Source: Defluviicoccus sp.
Lineage (GTDB): Bacteria; Pseudomonadota; Alphaproteobacteria; MPNO01
Assembly (NCBI GenBank): GCA_028820505.1
Contig: JAPPIT010000004.1
Span: forward strand, 1 to 64,000
Length of the DNA stretch: 64,000 bases
Direction: 5' to 3'
The notes beneath the pieces were generated by a model that made no database searches, was not told where the DNA came from, and saw only the letters and a list, made by a program, of their open reading frames with translations. Shown piece after piece: positions 5,092-43,199 of the stretch. Within the stretch, counting starts at the first letter, position 1, and every line of letters starts with the position of its first letter. Made by a program: the position numbers and the translations under genes.

Positions 5092-6130
5092 GATGCACGG
5101 GATGGTTCGCTAGGAAACCTAGGAGGCCCTAACCTGTCCGTAGGGAGAATGCCGGAATAGGGGTGAACCGGCTGACCAAGGACGCTCCGGCCCGACGACC
5201 GCGCCTGCCGGTCGACGGGAGCGCGCAACGCGGACACGAACGCGCAGGCACTCTGCGGAACCGACCGGCGAATCAATAAGTCCGAGGGATGCAGGCCAGG
5301 GAGTCGTAGCGCCTTCATAGTACCGATGACGGCGGGGAACCCGGTCCACGGGGACCCGTCCGAGGAAAGGGAGGCGTCACATGCGCAGACCCACTGACGG
5401 GAAACGATGGAGGAAACGCTGGGTTCCACCAACACGTCGACGAAACGGCAGTGGATAGCCGAACAGGCGAGGGAACACCCGGAGCGGGTCTTCACGTCGC
5501 TGCACCACCTGATCGACATCGACTGGATGCTGGAGGCGTATCGCCCGACGCGGAAGGATGGTGCGACGGGGATCGACGGCGTAACGGCTGCCGACTACGA
5601 GAAGGACCTGCGGGCCAATCTTGAGGACCTGCTGGAACGGATCAAGTCGGGCCGCTACTTCGCGCCGCCGGTTCGCCGCCACTACATCCCGAAGGCGGAC
5701 GGCAGGAAGCGCCCGCTCGGCATTCCGACCTTCGAGGACAAGGTGGTGCAGCGGGCGATCGTGATGATCCTCGAGCCGATTTACGAGACGGACTTTCTGC
5801 CGTGCTCGTACGGCTTCCGCCCCGGGCGCTCGGCCCATGATGCCCTCGACGCTCTGCGCAACGGCATCATGGAGCAGAGGCTGAGATGGGTGATCGACGC
5901 GGATCTGGCCAGATACTTTGACTCGATTCCGCATTCCCACCTTCGCTCTTTCCTCGACCTGCGGATCAAGGACGGTGTGGTCCGGCGAATGCTGGACAAG
6001 TGGCTGAAGGCCGGGGTTCTCGACCAAGGAGTGCTGCAACGGTCCGAGACTGGAACTCCTCAGGGCGGGGTTGTCAGCCCTTTGCTATCGAACGTGTTCC
6101 TGCACTACGTGCTGGACAAATGGTTCGAAG
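5092..6130 (+). mobile_element. Group II intron, 3'-truncated
   Basis: About 300 bases upstream of a maturase-type reverse transcriptase frame are rich in short hairpins and contain phrases typical of intron domain I leaders (for example GGAGTCGTAGCG near 5298 and the CACGGGGACCCGTCCG helix near 5350), which identifies the ribozyme 5' part. The exact 5' boundary is uncertain; I place it near 5092. The element stops abruptly at about 6130 in the middle of the reverse transcriptase. No domain V/VI hairpin follows, and the sequence passes directly into an unrelated broken gene on the opposite strand. It should be incapable of splicing or retrohoming. Confidence 0.75.
5407..6130 (+). pseudogene. 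ltrA: Group II intron reverse transcriptase/maturase, C-terminally truncated
   Basis: The first 241 codons match bacterial group II intron reverse transcriptases: KDGATGIDGVTAADYEKDL, RRHYIPKADGRKRPLGIPTF, PCSYGFRPGRSAHDAL, WVIDADLARYFDSI and GTPQGGVVSPLLSNVFLHYV, in the usual order. The frame then leaves the family right after YVLDKWFE (position 6129), before the catalytic YADD box, and the maturase (X) and DNA-binding regions are missing; the remaining 49 codons of the open frame are read from the antisense of another gene. Complete relatives are roughly 420-480 residues. It is therefore inactive. A second related fragment is at 39807-40390. Confidence 0.9.
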
Positions 6131-38330: not shown

Positions 38331-39095
38331 ATGGTGACCGCACAACGGAGAGGGTTACTTCTTGCGATCTTCATGGGGGCCGGTCTGCACGCGCCGACTG
38401 CCGGCGCAGCGGATTTGGTGCGGGTGGATTATCCGGGATTCACCCTGTGGCTGGACTGCGCGCAGCGAGGCGCTGTCTTGGCGCGCTACCAGCTTGCGCT
38501 CGACACCGGAAACATCGATACCAAGCACGGCTTCCGACTCGATGAGGATCATCGGGACTGTCAGCAAGCGTCGACCAGCACCTACAGGAGGCCCAAAGAT
38601 GCGGGAGACAAGTACGACCGTGGGCACATCGTTCCGGCGAACCACTTGGACGACGATGAGGAGGCATACAGGGCGAGCTACTTCATGACCAACGTCGTGC
38701 CGCAACACCGAAAGCTCAACCGCAAGGGCGGCGCGTGGCGGAAGACCGAAGACCTTATCGAGTGCTGGCGCGAGGAAGGGCCTCTCGAAATCTGGATCGG
38801 AGTGCTCTGGGGAACGGACGAGGCCAACGATCATTTCGTCCGCTCACACGGCATTGCCACGCCGGATGCATTCGTGAAGCTGGTCTATCGACCGGGACTA
38901 GACGGCGAAGAGGGCAAGGCGATCGCCTGGCGCCTGTCAAACCGGTTCATTCCGGACGAAACGCTGATGGAAGAGAGCGTGGCGCCCGGGAAGGTCGAGA
39001 AGGAAATCGGCCGCGTGCTGAATTTGCCCGGTGTCGACAAGACCCGGAAGGCAAATCCCGCGGATTGGCGGGATGCAACGAACTGCGATCCCTGA
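38331..39095 (+). CDS. Secreted DNA/RNA non-specific endonuclease
   Basis: The 254-residue protein has a signal peptide (MVTAQRRGLLLAIFMGAGLH, cleavage near AGA-AD) and the NUC (beta-beta-alpha metal) motif: DRGHIVPANHLDDD with DRGH at 96-99 holding the catalytic His, then NVVPQHRKLNRKGGAWRKTE with Asn121 and Glu140 as metal and support residues. This is the full catalytic set of NucA/EndoG-type nucleases. It should act in the periplasm or outside the cell, perhaps in nutrient scavenging or defence against DNA uptake. It begins 116 bases after the IS21 remnant. Complete and probably active. Confidence 0.92.
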   Translation: MVTAQRRGLLLAIFMGAGLHAPTAGAADLVRVDYPGFTLWLDCAQRGAVLARYQLALDTGNIDTKHGFRLDEDHRDCQQASTSTYRRPKDAGDKYDRGHIVPANHLDDDEEAYRASYFMTNVVPQHRKLNRKGGAWRKTEDLIECWREEGPLEIWIGVLWGTDEANDHFVRSHGIATPDAFVKLVYRPGLDGEEGKAIAWRLSNRFIPDETLMEESVAPGKVEKEIGRVLNLPGVDKTRKANPADWRDATNCDP

Positions 39096-39293: not shown

Positions 39294-39800
39294 TCACCTG
39301 GTCGAACCGCCGGTCGCCGCATCGAAGGGGTACAGTTGAGTGCCCTGTCCTATGATTTGGGGGATCTCCCGTCCGACACGCTCGGCGGCCCGTTTGATGT
39401 CGCGGTCCGCGAGATGGGCGTAGCGCAGCGTCATGCGGGTGCTGGAATGACCGAGCAGGCGAGAGACCACCGGCACCGGCACACCGTTCATCACCGCGTG
39501 ACTGGCATGGGAATGACGCAGGTCGTGCAGCCGCACGTTCTCGATCCCGGCCTCGCGCCGCACCCGGTACCAGAGCCCGAGGTTCTGGCCACGCGGCCGT
39601 GACGGCTCGCAGAGCGACGGGAACACGAACGGACTCTCTCCGCGCGGCCGGCGTTCGAGAATGCGCCGGGCCTGGCTGTTGAGCGGAACCTTTCTTGGCC
39701 CGGTCTTGGAATCCGCCAGCACAATGGTGTCGCCCCGCACCTCGGACCAGCGCAGCCGAACGATCTCGTTCCTGCGGTAGCCGAACAAGCGCGGGAGCAT
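39294..39800 (-). pseudogene. Tyrosine integrase, catalytic-domain fragment
   Basis: The 168-codon fragment holds the integrase catalytic domain: first Arg in YRRNEIVRLRWSEV, Lys in SKTGPRKVPL, the H-x-x-R box VRLHDLRHSHASHAV, LGH, and Tyr in MTLRYAHLADRD. It starts abruptly at the junction with the second reverse-transcriptase fragment (about 39800), so the N-terminal arm and core-binding domains are lost. All catalytic residues are present, but without DNA-binding domains it is unlikely to integrate. Confidence 0.85.
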
Positions 39801-39806
39801 CCGAAT

Positions 39807-40390
39807 CGGGTGTTCACGTCCCTGCATCACGTCACTAATGGCGAATGGATGCGCGAGGCGTACCGCCTGACGCGCAAGGATGGAGCGACAGGCATCGACG
39901 GCGTGACGGCCGCCTACTACGAGAAGGACCTGGAGGCCAATCTCGATCACCTCCTGGGCCGAATGAAGTCGGGCCGTTACTTCGCGCAGCCGGCACGACC
40001 CCACTACATCTCCCAAGGCGGATGGCACAAGACGACCGCTCGGCATTCCGACCTTCGAAGACAAGGTGGCGCAGCGGGCCATCCTGATGCTGCTGGAGCC
40101 GATCTACGAGACGGACTTTCTGCCGTGTTCCTACGGCTTCCGGCGCGGACGGTCGGCCCACGATGCCCTAAACGCACTTCGCTCGGGCATCATGGAGCAC
40201 CGCCAACGGTGGGTGATTGACGCGGATTTGAAATCCTACTTCGACTCGATCTCGCACACCCATCTGCGGTCATTCCTCGACCTGCGGATCAAGGACGGCG
40301 TCGCTAGGCGCATGATCGACAAATGGTTGAAGGCAGGGGTACTCGAAGAGGGCACCCTGCACAGACCGGTCGCTGGCACCGCCCACCCTC
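39807..40390 (+). pseudogene. Group II intron reverse transcriptase, doubly truncated and frameshifted
   Basis: VFTSLHHVTNGEWMREAYRL and KDGATGIDGVTAAYYEKDLE open the fragment in one frame. A one-base insertion near 40010 (ATCTCCCAAGG where the intact relative has ATCCCGAAGG) moves the match to the next frame, with EPIYETDFLPCSYGFRRGRS and WVIDADLKSYFDSI. The match ends at GTLHRPVAGT (about 40390), before the QGG and YADD boxes. It is homologous to, but clearly different from, the fragment at 5407-6130, so it represents a second intron. Confidence 0.88.
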
Positions 40391-40642
40391 TGAGTGACGT
40401 CACCTTTCCACGGTGCATTGGCTATTATAGATGATATCTGGCGGGTAGGTTGCATGATATTCACCGACTACATTGGTGAAACCCGGCACGGAAGGGCGAC
40501 GGCATCGCGTCCGTCTGACGAACTGCTTACCGCTCGTATCAGAGATGGAAATTGACCGCTTACGGTGCGATGATGAGCAGCAGCGCAGCGAGGTGTCCTG
40601 CGTTGCTGTCGGGTGTTCGAACTAAAGTGAGAAACGCAGAAA

Positions 40643-41230
40643 ATGACAGAGATATCCTCGTGGTTCAGCCCGGAAATCGTGGTCGAGATCGGCAAGGGTG
40701 TCGGCTTGCTGCTGGCGGCGGGCGTGGCGGGGACTTTTGCCCGGTGGCGCTACATGACTGCTGATGCCCATCTCCGACAGGAGAAGTTCCATACGGCCTC
40801 GAAATTGCTTGCGGATGAACGAAGTGGTGAGACGAACCCATCGAATATTACCCGCGTAAGTTGCATAACGGTCTTGGGCCGGTTGGCGCGAGAAGACCCG
40901 AAAACTTACCACATTGCTGTCATGAGCATCTTCGAGAATTTTCTAACTTGGACAACTGTCTTCGGCGGCGATCGGACCGTGGTCGACCCAGATGCCGAGG
41001 ATACTCGTGAGGCGATCCGGTTTATCGAATCTCGAAACCGCAAACAGTTGAAGGTGGAGCGGAAAGAAGGCTACAAGTTTTCATTGCGATATTTCGACCC
41101 CCTTCGCTCGCCCTTTCGCTTGAAGGATGGACGAATGTTTCTTACCGATGAGGCGCTGCCTTTGGTCCGCGAAAAAATCAAAGAACTTGGAATAGAAAGT
41201 CGCTTCCTGGCAGAGCGACATCCGGAATAG
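40643..41230 (+). CDS. Single-pass membrane protein with helical repeat-like domain
   Basis: The 195-residue product has one N-terminal membrane helix (IGKGVGLLLAAGVAGTFARW), then a helix-rich block (HTASKLLADERSGETNPSNI, RVSCITVLGRLAREDPKTYH, IAVMSIFENFLTWTTVFGGD). That block resembles the helical repeat preceding pentapeptide-repeat domains in other bacterial membrane proteins (G-x-x-x-LGRLAxxDP). The C-terminal part is basic and unfamiliar. GC is lower than in flanking genes, which suggests transfer. It sits next to the integrase and reverse-transcriptase fragments, in a typical cargo position. Function unknown. Confidence 0.65.
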   Translation: MTEISSWFSPEIVVEIGKGVGLLLAAGVAGTFARWRYMTADAHLRQEKFHTASKLLADERSGETNPSNITRVSCITVLGRLAREDPKTYHIAVMSIFENFLTWTTVFGGDRTVVDPDAEDTREAIRFIESRNRKQLKVERKEGYKFSLRYFDPLRSPFRLKDGRMFLTDEALPLVREKIKELGIESRFLAERHPE

Positions 41231-41510
41231 AAGTACCCTCTGTCAAAGAGTTGCCAAGGGTTGCAGTCAAGGGGCTGCATTCAGGCCGCCATCGGGGACA
41301 TCCATCGCCGCATCGTGGCGGTAGGGTATTTGCGGGGGACAGAGTTGGATTGGTTCGCCGTCAGCGCGGCACGCCGCCGCCACCAAGTTGACCTGTCCGA
41401 TAAGAAAATCTTATCCTGCGAGCCGCGGAGGCCTCCTTCGTCCCCCGCTACGCACGAGGGTTGCGGCTGGGCGATCCGGTGGATTGCGATGGAAGTCGAG
41501 GTGCGATGTC

Positions 41511-43199
41511 ATGCGGGTCAAGGCCGTGTTCGATCGTCGTCGACTGTCCGTTAAGCTCCTCGCCACGCTGATCGCGGCGGCGCTGCTGCCGGTGGCGGCT
41601 CCGTCCCATGCGCAGGACGCCCACGGCGCGATCGCTGTGGGTCGGGCGGCCCAGGAGCGGACCGTCGCCTACGGATTTTCCTGGAACCACGCGGGCCGCG
41701 ACACGGCGAGCAAGGCGGCGCTCGGCGCCTGTCGCGCCGGCGGCGGAACGGACTGTGTCGAGCTCGCCTGGTTCCAGAACGGCTGCGGCGCGCTCGTGCT
41801 CGACCGCCACGGGATGGCCCAGGGAAAGAGCGCGAGAACGCTGGAACAGGCCGAGGCCCGGGCGCTTCAAACCTGCGAGGCCGCTGGGGGCTCTGGCTGC
41901 ACGGTGGTCGGCTCGCAATGCGCCAGCCCGGGCGGGCGGGCGGGCACATGGACGGGCAGCGAACGCGCCCTTGCGAAACAGGAGGGGCTGCATGGCCAGC
42001 CGGCGGAGGACGGCGCGCAACGGGACGAGGGTCTGACGCGCGGCGAGCGCGTCCGGGTACAGCGGGGCCTCGCCGCGCTGGGTTTCGAGACAGGTCCGGC
42101 CGACGGCATGTTCGGTCCCAAGACGAGATCGGCGATCTGGCAATGGCAGGAAGCGAAGGGGCTCAAGGCGACGGGCTACCTGACGCGCGACCAAGCTGCG
42201 GCACTTGTCGCTACCGGCGCGGCGCATCGGATATTTCAAGGGAAAGCATACGCCTCAGGGGGCCGGGCGACGAGACGCGCGGTTATCCCAAGTCCGAAAT
42301 GCACGGAGGTTTCCGACGGCGCAGCTTGCTGGAAGGAAGTAACGAACAAGCGCGGCTGCTATTTCCGGATAAATGGGCCCGAACCTGATCATTCGGCGAC
42401 CTGGTCTGGAACGTGCACCGGGGGCATCGCCGTCGGAAAAGGAACCTTGGTGTGGACAGAGGGCGATGCAGTAAGTTCCGAATTCATTGGAGCGTTTGTT
42501 GAGGGTCGGTTCAGCGGTCCCTGGCTCTTGCGATATCCCGGCTGGGGCTTTGGAAAAGGGCCCTACGTGGAAGGTGTGATGCATGGCGAATGGGTCTGGC
42601 ACGGGAGCGGCTGGGGGCTCATTCGCGGCTCCTATATTGCGAGAGGCCCATATGTAAAGGGCAAGAAACAAGGTGAATGGGTCTATCGCTACATAGACTA
42701 CGATAGTGTTTACAGAGGCCATTTTGTCGAGGACAGGCAACATGGAGAATGGATATTCTACAGGATCACCACCGGGGGACCTAAGAGCTTTTACAAGAAA
42801 ACCTATGTGCATGGAGAAACGGTTCACGAATACATTGCCGATGATCTCAGTGAAAGAACATCCGATTACGATGAGGCGACAGGCGTAGTGGTCAGCCGCT
42901 TCAAAGATGGAAGCGTCTATAAACGGAATATTGATCGTAGGACTGAATCGTACACCGTACGTTTTGCCGATGGAACCGTCTCGGATGCTTTTCCGAAGGA
43001 TGAAAAGAGTGGGCGTTGGGTTCTACGGTACCCGGACGGAAGCATTTGCCAAGGTCCCTATATGGGATATGACGAGAAAAAGCATGGGGAATGGACTTGT
43101 CACCACGCCGATGGAATCGTTCACAAGGTTACATTCAAGGAAGGCGACAAGCAGGGGACCTGGGTAATTCGCTACCCTGACGGAACCGTCCAGGAGTGA
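41511..43199 (+). CDS. Secreted DUF4189 / peptidoglycan-binding / MORN-like repeat protein
   Basis: The 562-residue product has a signal peptide (cut near residue 34, SHA-Q), a DUF4189-type domain (about 36-130) with a regular Cys pattern and repeated A-x-x-x-AL-x-x-C, then a peptidoglycan-binding domain (about 172-232; RVRVQRGLAALGFETGPADG, FGPKTRSAIWQWQEAKGL). From about 290 to the end is a set of MORN-like repeats of roughly 25-35 residues, marked by HGEWVWHG, QGEWVYRY, HGEWIFYR, SGRWVLRY, HGEWTCHH and QGTWVIRY. The mosaic suggests attachment to the cell wall with an adhesive or scaffolding repeat face. GC drops in the repeat half. The combination is unusual. Function unknown. Confidence 0.78.
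   Translation: MRVKAVFDRRRLSVKLLATLIAAALLPVAAPSHAQDAHGAIAVGRAAQERTVAYGFSWNHAGRDTASKAALGACRAGGGTDCVELAWFQNGCGALVLDRHGMAQGKSARTLEQAEARALQTCEAAGGSGCTVVGSQCASPGGRAGTWTGSERALAKQEGLHGQPAEDGAQRDEGLTRGERVRVQRGLAALGFETGPADGMFGPKTRSAIWQWQEAKGLKATGYLTRDQAAALVATGAAHRIFQGKAYASGGRATRRAVIPSPKCTEVSDGAACWKEVTNKRGCYFRINGPEPDHSATWSGTCTGGIAVGKGTLVWTEGDAVSSEFIGAFVEGRFSGPWLLRYPGWGFGKGPYVEGVMHGEWVWHGSGWGLIRGSYIARGPYVKGKKQGEWVYRYIDYDSVYRGHFVEDRQHGEWIFYRITTGGPKSFYKKTYVHGETVHEYIADDLSERTSDYDEATGVVVSRFKDGSVYKRNIDRRTESYTVRFADGTVSDAFPKDEKSGRWVLRYPDGSICQGPYMGYDEKKHGEWTCHHADGIVHKVTFKEGDKQGTWVIRYPDGTVQE

Follow-up and report, generated by a model that had tools for sequence, protein, structure and literature searches.

What does a protein do that carries a peptidoglycan-binding domain followed by MORN-like repeats, and how did its gene come together? 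Such repeats are familiar above all as intracellular features of eukaryotes. The question is raised by a gene of Defluviicoccus sp. found in the window, by which we mean the whole stretch of 64,000 nucleotides that was analysed (contig C197 of a 5.49 Mb genome). The initial annotation had described the product as a secreted mosaic and took the lower GC of its repeat half to suggest assembly by transfer. The gene and the parts of its product are the following.

41511..43199, + strand: whole gene, 562 aa from ATG (ORF list and translation)
41511..41612, + strand: signal peptide, residues 1-34 (by eye; the signal is aligned in both paralogs)
41625..41921, + strand: DUF4189 (Rv1813c fold), residues 39-137 (Pfam; pLDDT mostly 74-89; 7nhz, Z 11.5)
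42042..42206, + strand: PG_binding_1, residues 178-232 (Pfam; PG-binding part of SltB3, Z 8.8)
42288..42428, + strand: four-cysteine cap, residues 260-306 (invariant columns of profiles A1 and A3)
42420..43196, + strand: MORN-like array, residues 304-562 (motif count and family-profile match; by eye, about 8 of its units look clear and 3 worn)

Domains of the window protein

The N-terminus reads by eye as a Sec-type signal, with RRR, a hydrophobic run and SHA|Q. Pfam placed the protein in both DUF4189 (PF13827; 67 bits, cut-off 25) and PG_binding_1 (PF01471; 51.7 bits, cut-off 23). The modelled DUF4189 region superposed on 7nhz, the NMR structure of Rv1813c, over 90 residues (Z 11.5, rmsd 2.3, 29% identity), and the PG_binding_1 region on SltB3 (Z 8.8) and SltB2 (Z 7.7), with 38-42% identity. 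Together with the MORN-like tail, these assignments bear out the description as a mosaic, and the signal suggests that it is secreted: the product would be exported, and is probably bound to the cell wall.

The cysteine-bearing DUF4189 domain, seldom named in the literature searched, is common to Rv1813c, which is exported, and to the window protein, which is predicted to be. However, Rv1813c is a 143-aa protein with neither a PG-binding nor a MORN part, and the WACN C-terminal motif that marks its group, according to excerpts of PMC10269737, is absent from the window protein. With the lytic transglycosylases SltB3 and SltB2 the likeness lies in the PG_binding_1 domain, whereas no catalytic domain was matched in the window protein.

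The repeats were examined by motif counts over residues 257-562. The motif [HQS]G[ERT]W is present in 6 copies (at 358, 387, 411, 500, 525 and 548), a number that none of 10,000 shuffles reached (mean 0.039, maximum 2), so that the claim of at least six repeats stands. The 6 copies of G.W[VIL] were not reached in 10,000 shuffles either, the 7 copies of the weaker G.W were reached in 4, and the 2 copies of [GDE]..[GS].W in 1,446. As this last count is within the shuffle range, the repeat units are not uniform. Spacing between G-x-W repeats is mostly 23-29 residues.

Pfam did not call MORN (PF02493) in the window protein, and MORN_2 scored 11.4 bits against a cut-off of 29.6 (E 0.44). Of the two paralogs described below, C107a had no MORN call, and C107b scored above cut-off in one scan (26.7 bits) and below it in another (21.2 bits). 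Taken alone, the window protein matched solved MORN chains at E 0.03-0.3 only. In contrast, profile A1, made of 12 related tails with the window protein as first row, matched 6t4r (MORN repeat-containing protein 1) with E 7.9e-15, followed by other MORN1 chains and by radial-spoke and SETD7 arrays. The strong profile match, set against the weak single-sequence ones, indicates that the repeats are MORN at the family level and that the window copy has diverged. The window protein is thus like MORN proteins (6t4r MORN1, RSPH1, SETD7, junctophilin) in profile match and in G-x-W repeats, but differs from them in being predicted exported and wall-tethered, in having a four-cysteine cap at the start of the array, and in going unnoticed by the Pfam MORN models.

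As to possible disorder of the repeat region, the profile match does not point to it, but AlphaFold failed to model most of the array. With the tail alone, mean pLDDT was 44.1 and fell below 50 over much of the tail; with the full protein and three relatives it was 50.7, residues 335-556, mostly strands, being under 50. The beta-sheet of the tail is therefore putative. A Foldseek search with the AlphaFold model gave no match at E <= 0.001. The first repeats resembled 9ijj_3Q (MORN repeat containing 2, Z 5.2, the best match to a chain of that name) and 9e5c_2a (RSP1, Z 5.0), but neither score settles the fold. For residues 448-562, the last part of the tail (42852-43196), a low-confidence model was weakly similar to the sheet of CPAP/TCP10 (Z 5.5, rmsd 7.0), and the Pfam match to Tcp10_C was also weak (E 0.006).

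Between PG_binding_1 and the array lies the cap, with residues C264, C273-W, C283 and W298-S-G-x-C302, a stretch for which Pfam scans of this and related proteins gave no family exceeding its cut-off. The pattern W-[SFTY]-G-x-C was found at the start of the array in 34 of 48 related rows, or 34 of 45 once the 3 rows lacking a MORN match were dropped (6 duplicate places had been skipped beforehand). A cysteine precedes the cap tryptophan by 15 residues in 26 of these 34 rows, counted from the listing, as C283 precedes W298 in the window protein. C264 and C273 form a second cysteine pair, typical of a narrower group around the window protein, and the cap cysteines may well be joined by disulfides. 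In a 26-row subset, leaving out L102-L119, 14 rows had both the cap and an export signal, 6 had neither, 3 had the cap without a signal and 3 a signal without the cap (Fisher p 0.028); this association is a lead only, because the regular expression misses variants (WLGNC and WQGGC were seen) and because the rows are related.

Head and tail of different history

Three DUF4189 matches are present in the genome, namely the window gene and two genes in tandem, C107a and C107b, on contig C107. Pfam finds DUF4189 and PG_binding_1 above cut-off in both, and when aligned with the window protein they also show the cap, followed by a repeat-like tail that is shorter. Comparison of the window gene with C107a delimited two further features.

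41367..42196, + strand: head block, 84% DNA identity to C107a (blastn), covering the upstream region, signal peptide, DUF4189 and PG_binding_1
42196..42230, + strand: seam between the common head and the exchanged tail (end of the blastn match, end of the 80% tblastx segment, dS jump)

The head block, 830 bp long, starts 144 bp before the start codon and stops at the end of PG_binding_1; blastn of the window gene against C107a gave no match beyond 42196. In 40-residue blocks, amino acid identity between the two proteins is 0.78-0.90 up to residue 240, then 0.31-0.42. Between C107a and C107b it is 0.70 and 0.72 on either side of residue 240 and drops only further on. Fast evolution could explain part of the drop in the window pair. 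Synonymous divergence, however, is hardly affected by selection on the protein, and the dS between the window gene and C107a jumps from 0.41 (residues 1-235) to 1.43 (residues 241-345), which argues against that explanation; across the same border, C107a and C107b have dS values of 0.93 and 1.08. The tail of C107a was still found by tblastx, at 43.5% over 85 residues, and as this match persists past the seam, the two tails are distant homologues.

Trees of the two parts conflict. In the head tree (7 rows), the window gene and C107a group together (100/99), and a grouping of C107a with C107b is rejected (p-AU 0.001). In the tail tree (21 rows), it is the grouping of the window gene with C107a that is rejected (p-AU 0.022), as is the union of the three copies of this genome (0.042). 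There the window row stands beside two tails of another genome, G210, at 81/73 and unstarred, in a tree where p-AU values are moderate and branches long, that of the window row included. Head and tail of the window gene thus differ in history. The claim that the gene was assembled from parts gains a mapped seam, with an abrupt dS jump at a domain border. The tails of C107a and C107b have stayed related to each other, so that the change of tail is most simply placed in the window copy rather than in C107a.

The lower GC of the repeat half had been taken as a sign of transfer. The drop is real: GC is 0.733 in DUF4189 and 0.702 in the PG-binding domain, but in the repeat region it is 0.54 in one part and 0.508 in the other, against 0.66 for the window. 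It marks transfer only partly, though, because GC falls at this border in both paralogs too, in one from 0.737 to 0.623 and in the other from 0.697 to 0.627.

Two sites lie in the upstream part of the head block.

41388..41416, + strand: promoter-like site TTGACC-17-TTATCC (by eye; same spacing in C107a)
41399..41415, + strand: palindrome GATAAGAAAATCTTATC (GATAAGA-AAA-TCTTATC), candidate operator inside the promoter-like site (C107a keeps the ATAAG/CTTAT arms by eye)

Further upstream, several other elements were observed. A tyrosine-recombinase fragment (39294-40082, - strand; Pfam Phage_integrase, 1e-19) has at least 15 similar stretches in the genome, of about 390-525 bp, 14 of them at 75-82% identity and one at 67% (40 of 131 candidates were scored). 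A reverse-transcriptase fragment in two frames (39810-40434, + strand; Pfam RVT_1, 1.5e-8) is 80% identical to 5456-6023 of the window. A DNA/RNA non-specific endonuclease (38331-39095, + strand; Pfam Endonuclease_NS, 5.6e-24) looks exported by eye. A small low-GC protein without family (40643-41230, + strand) had one distant match among 30 other genomes searched; by eye, its N-terminus contains a single hydrophobic stretch. PADLOC gave no match.

On the proposed island origin of the whole gene the evidence points both ways: integrase and reverse-transcriptase fragments do lie 1-2 kb upstream, but two tandem paralogs of the head are found on another contig. The same fragments would suit a decay accident, in which the head happened to fuse with the remnant of a MORN gene and the result is non-functional, and a cousin of the window gene in genome G387 is indeed interrupted by a stop. 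Against this stand the intact frame of 562 codons, the promoter-like site kept in C107a, and a dN/dS of 0.235 for the head pair, although this pairwise value cannot say which copy is constrained. We regard decay as improbable.

Relatives of the tail and their tethers

Within the order, DUF4189 was found in 2 of 27 genomes, the present one included, and in 0 of 4 other genomes of the genus, a sporadic spread that fits gain or loss. In a sample of the class, 56 of 385 genomes have relatives of the tail and 49 have DUF4189 (43 above cut-off). The order DUF4189-PG_binding_1-MORN came up in three genomes: the present one, L037, where the repeat match is weak (E 8e-5), and G387, which has it in one intact gene besides the one cut by a stop. 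This count comes from one peptide-pattern scan and the class sample, and more may exist. The architecture, which the initial annotation held to be unusual, is thus rare in what was searched, and no description of it was found in the literature searched (MORN with peptidoglycan, DUF4189, symbionts, secretion).

Outside this exact order, both halves were found in other company. Two loci (L038 3899-5005 and L039 3884-5179) have the head of the window gene with different, cysteine-bearing tails, in which neither a MORN match nor a Pfam family was found. A constant head with other tails recalls polymorphic toxins, whose variable tail would be toxic. Yet no enzyme or toxin family was matched in the tail of the window protein, no immunity gene is evident by eye among the downstream ORFs, and MORN is a binding repeat, so that a toxin-like system appears very remote.

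Conversely, the capped MORN tail follows PG_binding_1 alone (G004), SH3_3 (G210, G380, G303) or DUF4189 alone (G101, G310), and a further protein of G210 falls just short of the threshold both for Sel1 (27.7 bits, cut-off 30.7) and for PG_binding_1 (20.8 bits, cut-off 23). Of the 45 MORN-matching frames, which are the best matches with loci given and a subset of all matches, 33 have an export-like signal by a simple signal-peptide rule, or 32 after one judged spurious (L110) is removed. Exported MORN proteins had seemed unusual on the ground that MORN is mostly intracellular, a view that the 32 exported-looking frames of 45 contradict for this set of relatives.

In a sample of the phylum, the cap-MORN model matched 68 of 398 genomes. 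The matches listed outside the present genome start at model position 10 or later, leaving the first cysteine (position 4) uncovered, unlike the cap-bearing tails, which came from the class search. A search of viral contigs gave no match for one query; for the window protein, 9 stretches fitted a pattern, and 0 of them were confirmed. Among plasmids, 24 records were matched, none covering 80% of the query; 20 of the 24 were listed, 18 with the PG-binding stretch, one with DUF4189 (H12) and one with the repeats at 24% identity (H1).

Several of the tethers named above (PG_binding_1, SH3_3) are envelope-type modules, which would suit a housekeeping scaffold: arrays would associate with one another or with enzymes of the wall and so organise the periplasm, no tail being specific for a partner. 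Excerpts of PMC7725318 argue for homotypic contacts in MORN structures and caution against presuming lipid binding. A fixed role of this kind is nevertheless at odds with tail exchange and with the sporadic presence of DUF4189 in the order, and we hold it to be unlikely.

One further tether deserves attention. In G285, a single protein (L118 265-2106) has a signal-like start, ankyrin repeats, PG_binding_1, the cap and a MORN array. PG_binding_1 directly precedes the same kind of cap-MORN tail as in the window protein, but ankyrin repeats stand where the window protein has DUF4189. The present genome itself has, on contig C154, a 592-codon frame with ankyrin repeats (L004 556-2331), exported-looking by eye, which also includes a stretch 45% identical to the PG-binding part of the window protein. 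Ankyrins are among the eukaryotic-like proteins of sponge symbionts, and the window protein might then be a eukaryotic-like surface repeat protein of an animal-associated bacterium, which binds a host protein and swaps tails for a new target. Such proteins are reported abundant in sponge symbionts in the available part of PMC6790972, and excerpts of PMC10269737 describe Rv1813c as a secreted protein that, if produced inside host cells, acts on their mitochondria. However, the present genome has 6 ankyrin matches, a number inside the range of the other 25 genomes (0-12); 'MORN' in the same part of PMC6790972 occurs twice, both times in author names, and in the excerpted coral/sponge paper only within 'morning'. 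Moreover, a wall tether suits holding more than delivery. Host interaction therefore seems to us rather doubtful.

A probable tethered adaptor with an exchangeable tail

The reading that we favour, and consider probable, is that the window gene is a chimera in which a head of the C107a type acquired a cap-MORN tail with a separate past, giving an exported protein held at peptidoglycan with a protein-binding MORN tail. The protein would be exported by Sec and its signal peptide removed; PG_binding_1 would hold the mature protein at peptidoglycan, wall binding being predicted from this domain, and DUF4189 would form a cysteine-rich globular head. The tail would consist of the cysteine-stapled cap, then a MORN beta-sheet offering a protein-binding, possibly self-associating, surface. 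That the array binds proteins or self-assembles is proposed here as it is argued for MORN repeats in the excerpts of PMC7725318. The product may thus serve as an adaptor, tethered to the wall in the periplasm or at the surface, with an exchangeable tail whose MORN sheet would bind partner proteins. The joining of the 830-bp head to a tail of different history would provide the genome with one type of tether and different binding tails, and tail exchange suggests that the choice of partner is the variable part.

More tentatively, the window gene may belong to a display family of Alphaproteobacteria with constant tethers and exchangeable tails, a possibility to which we give limited credence. 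Tethers made of DUF4189-PG_binding_1, PG_binding_1, ankyrin-PG_binding_1 or SH3_3 would share a promiscuous, cysteine-capped MORN tail, and tails of paralogs would be swapped at the border of the tether. The result would be a varied set of binders, at the surface or in the periplasm, which might recognise hosts or neighbours. MORN is here the exchangeable outer part of bacterial proteins that are predicted to be exported and tethered to the wall, and it follows a cysteine cap that is conserved. If tails do swap to change partners, bacteria would have a display system whose recombination seam has been mapped, and DUF4189 would gain a testable setting.
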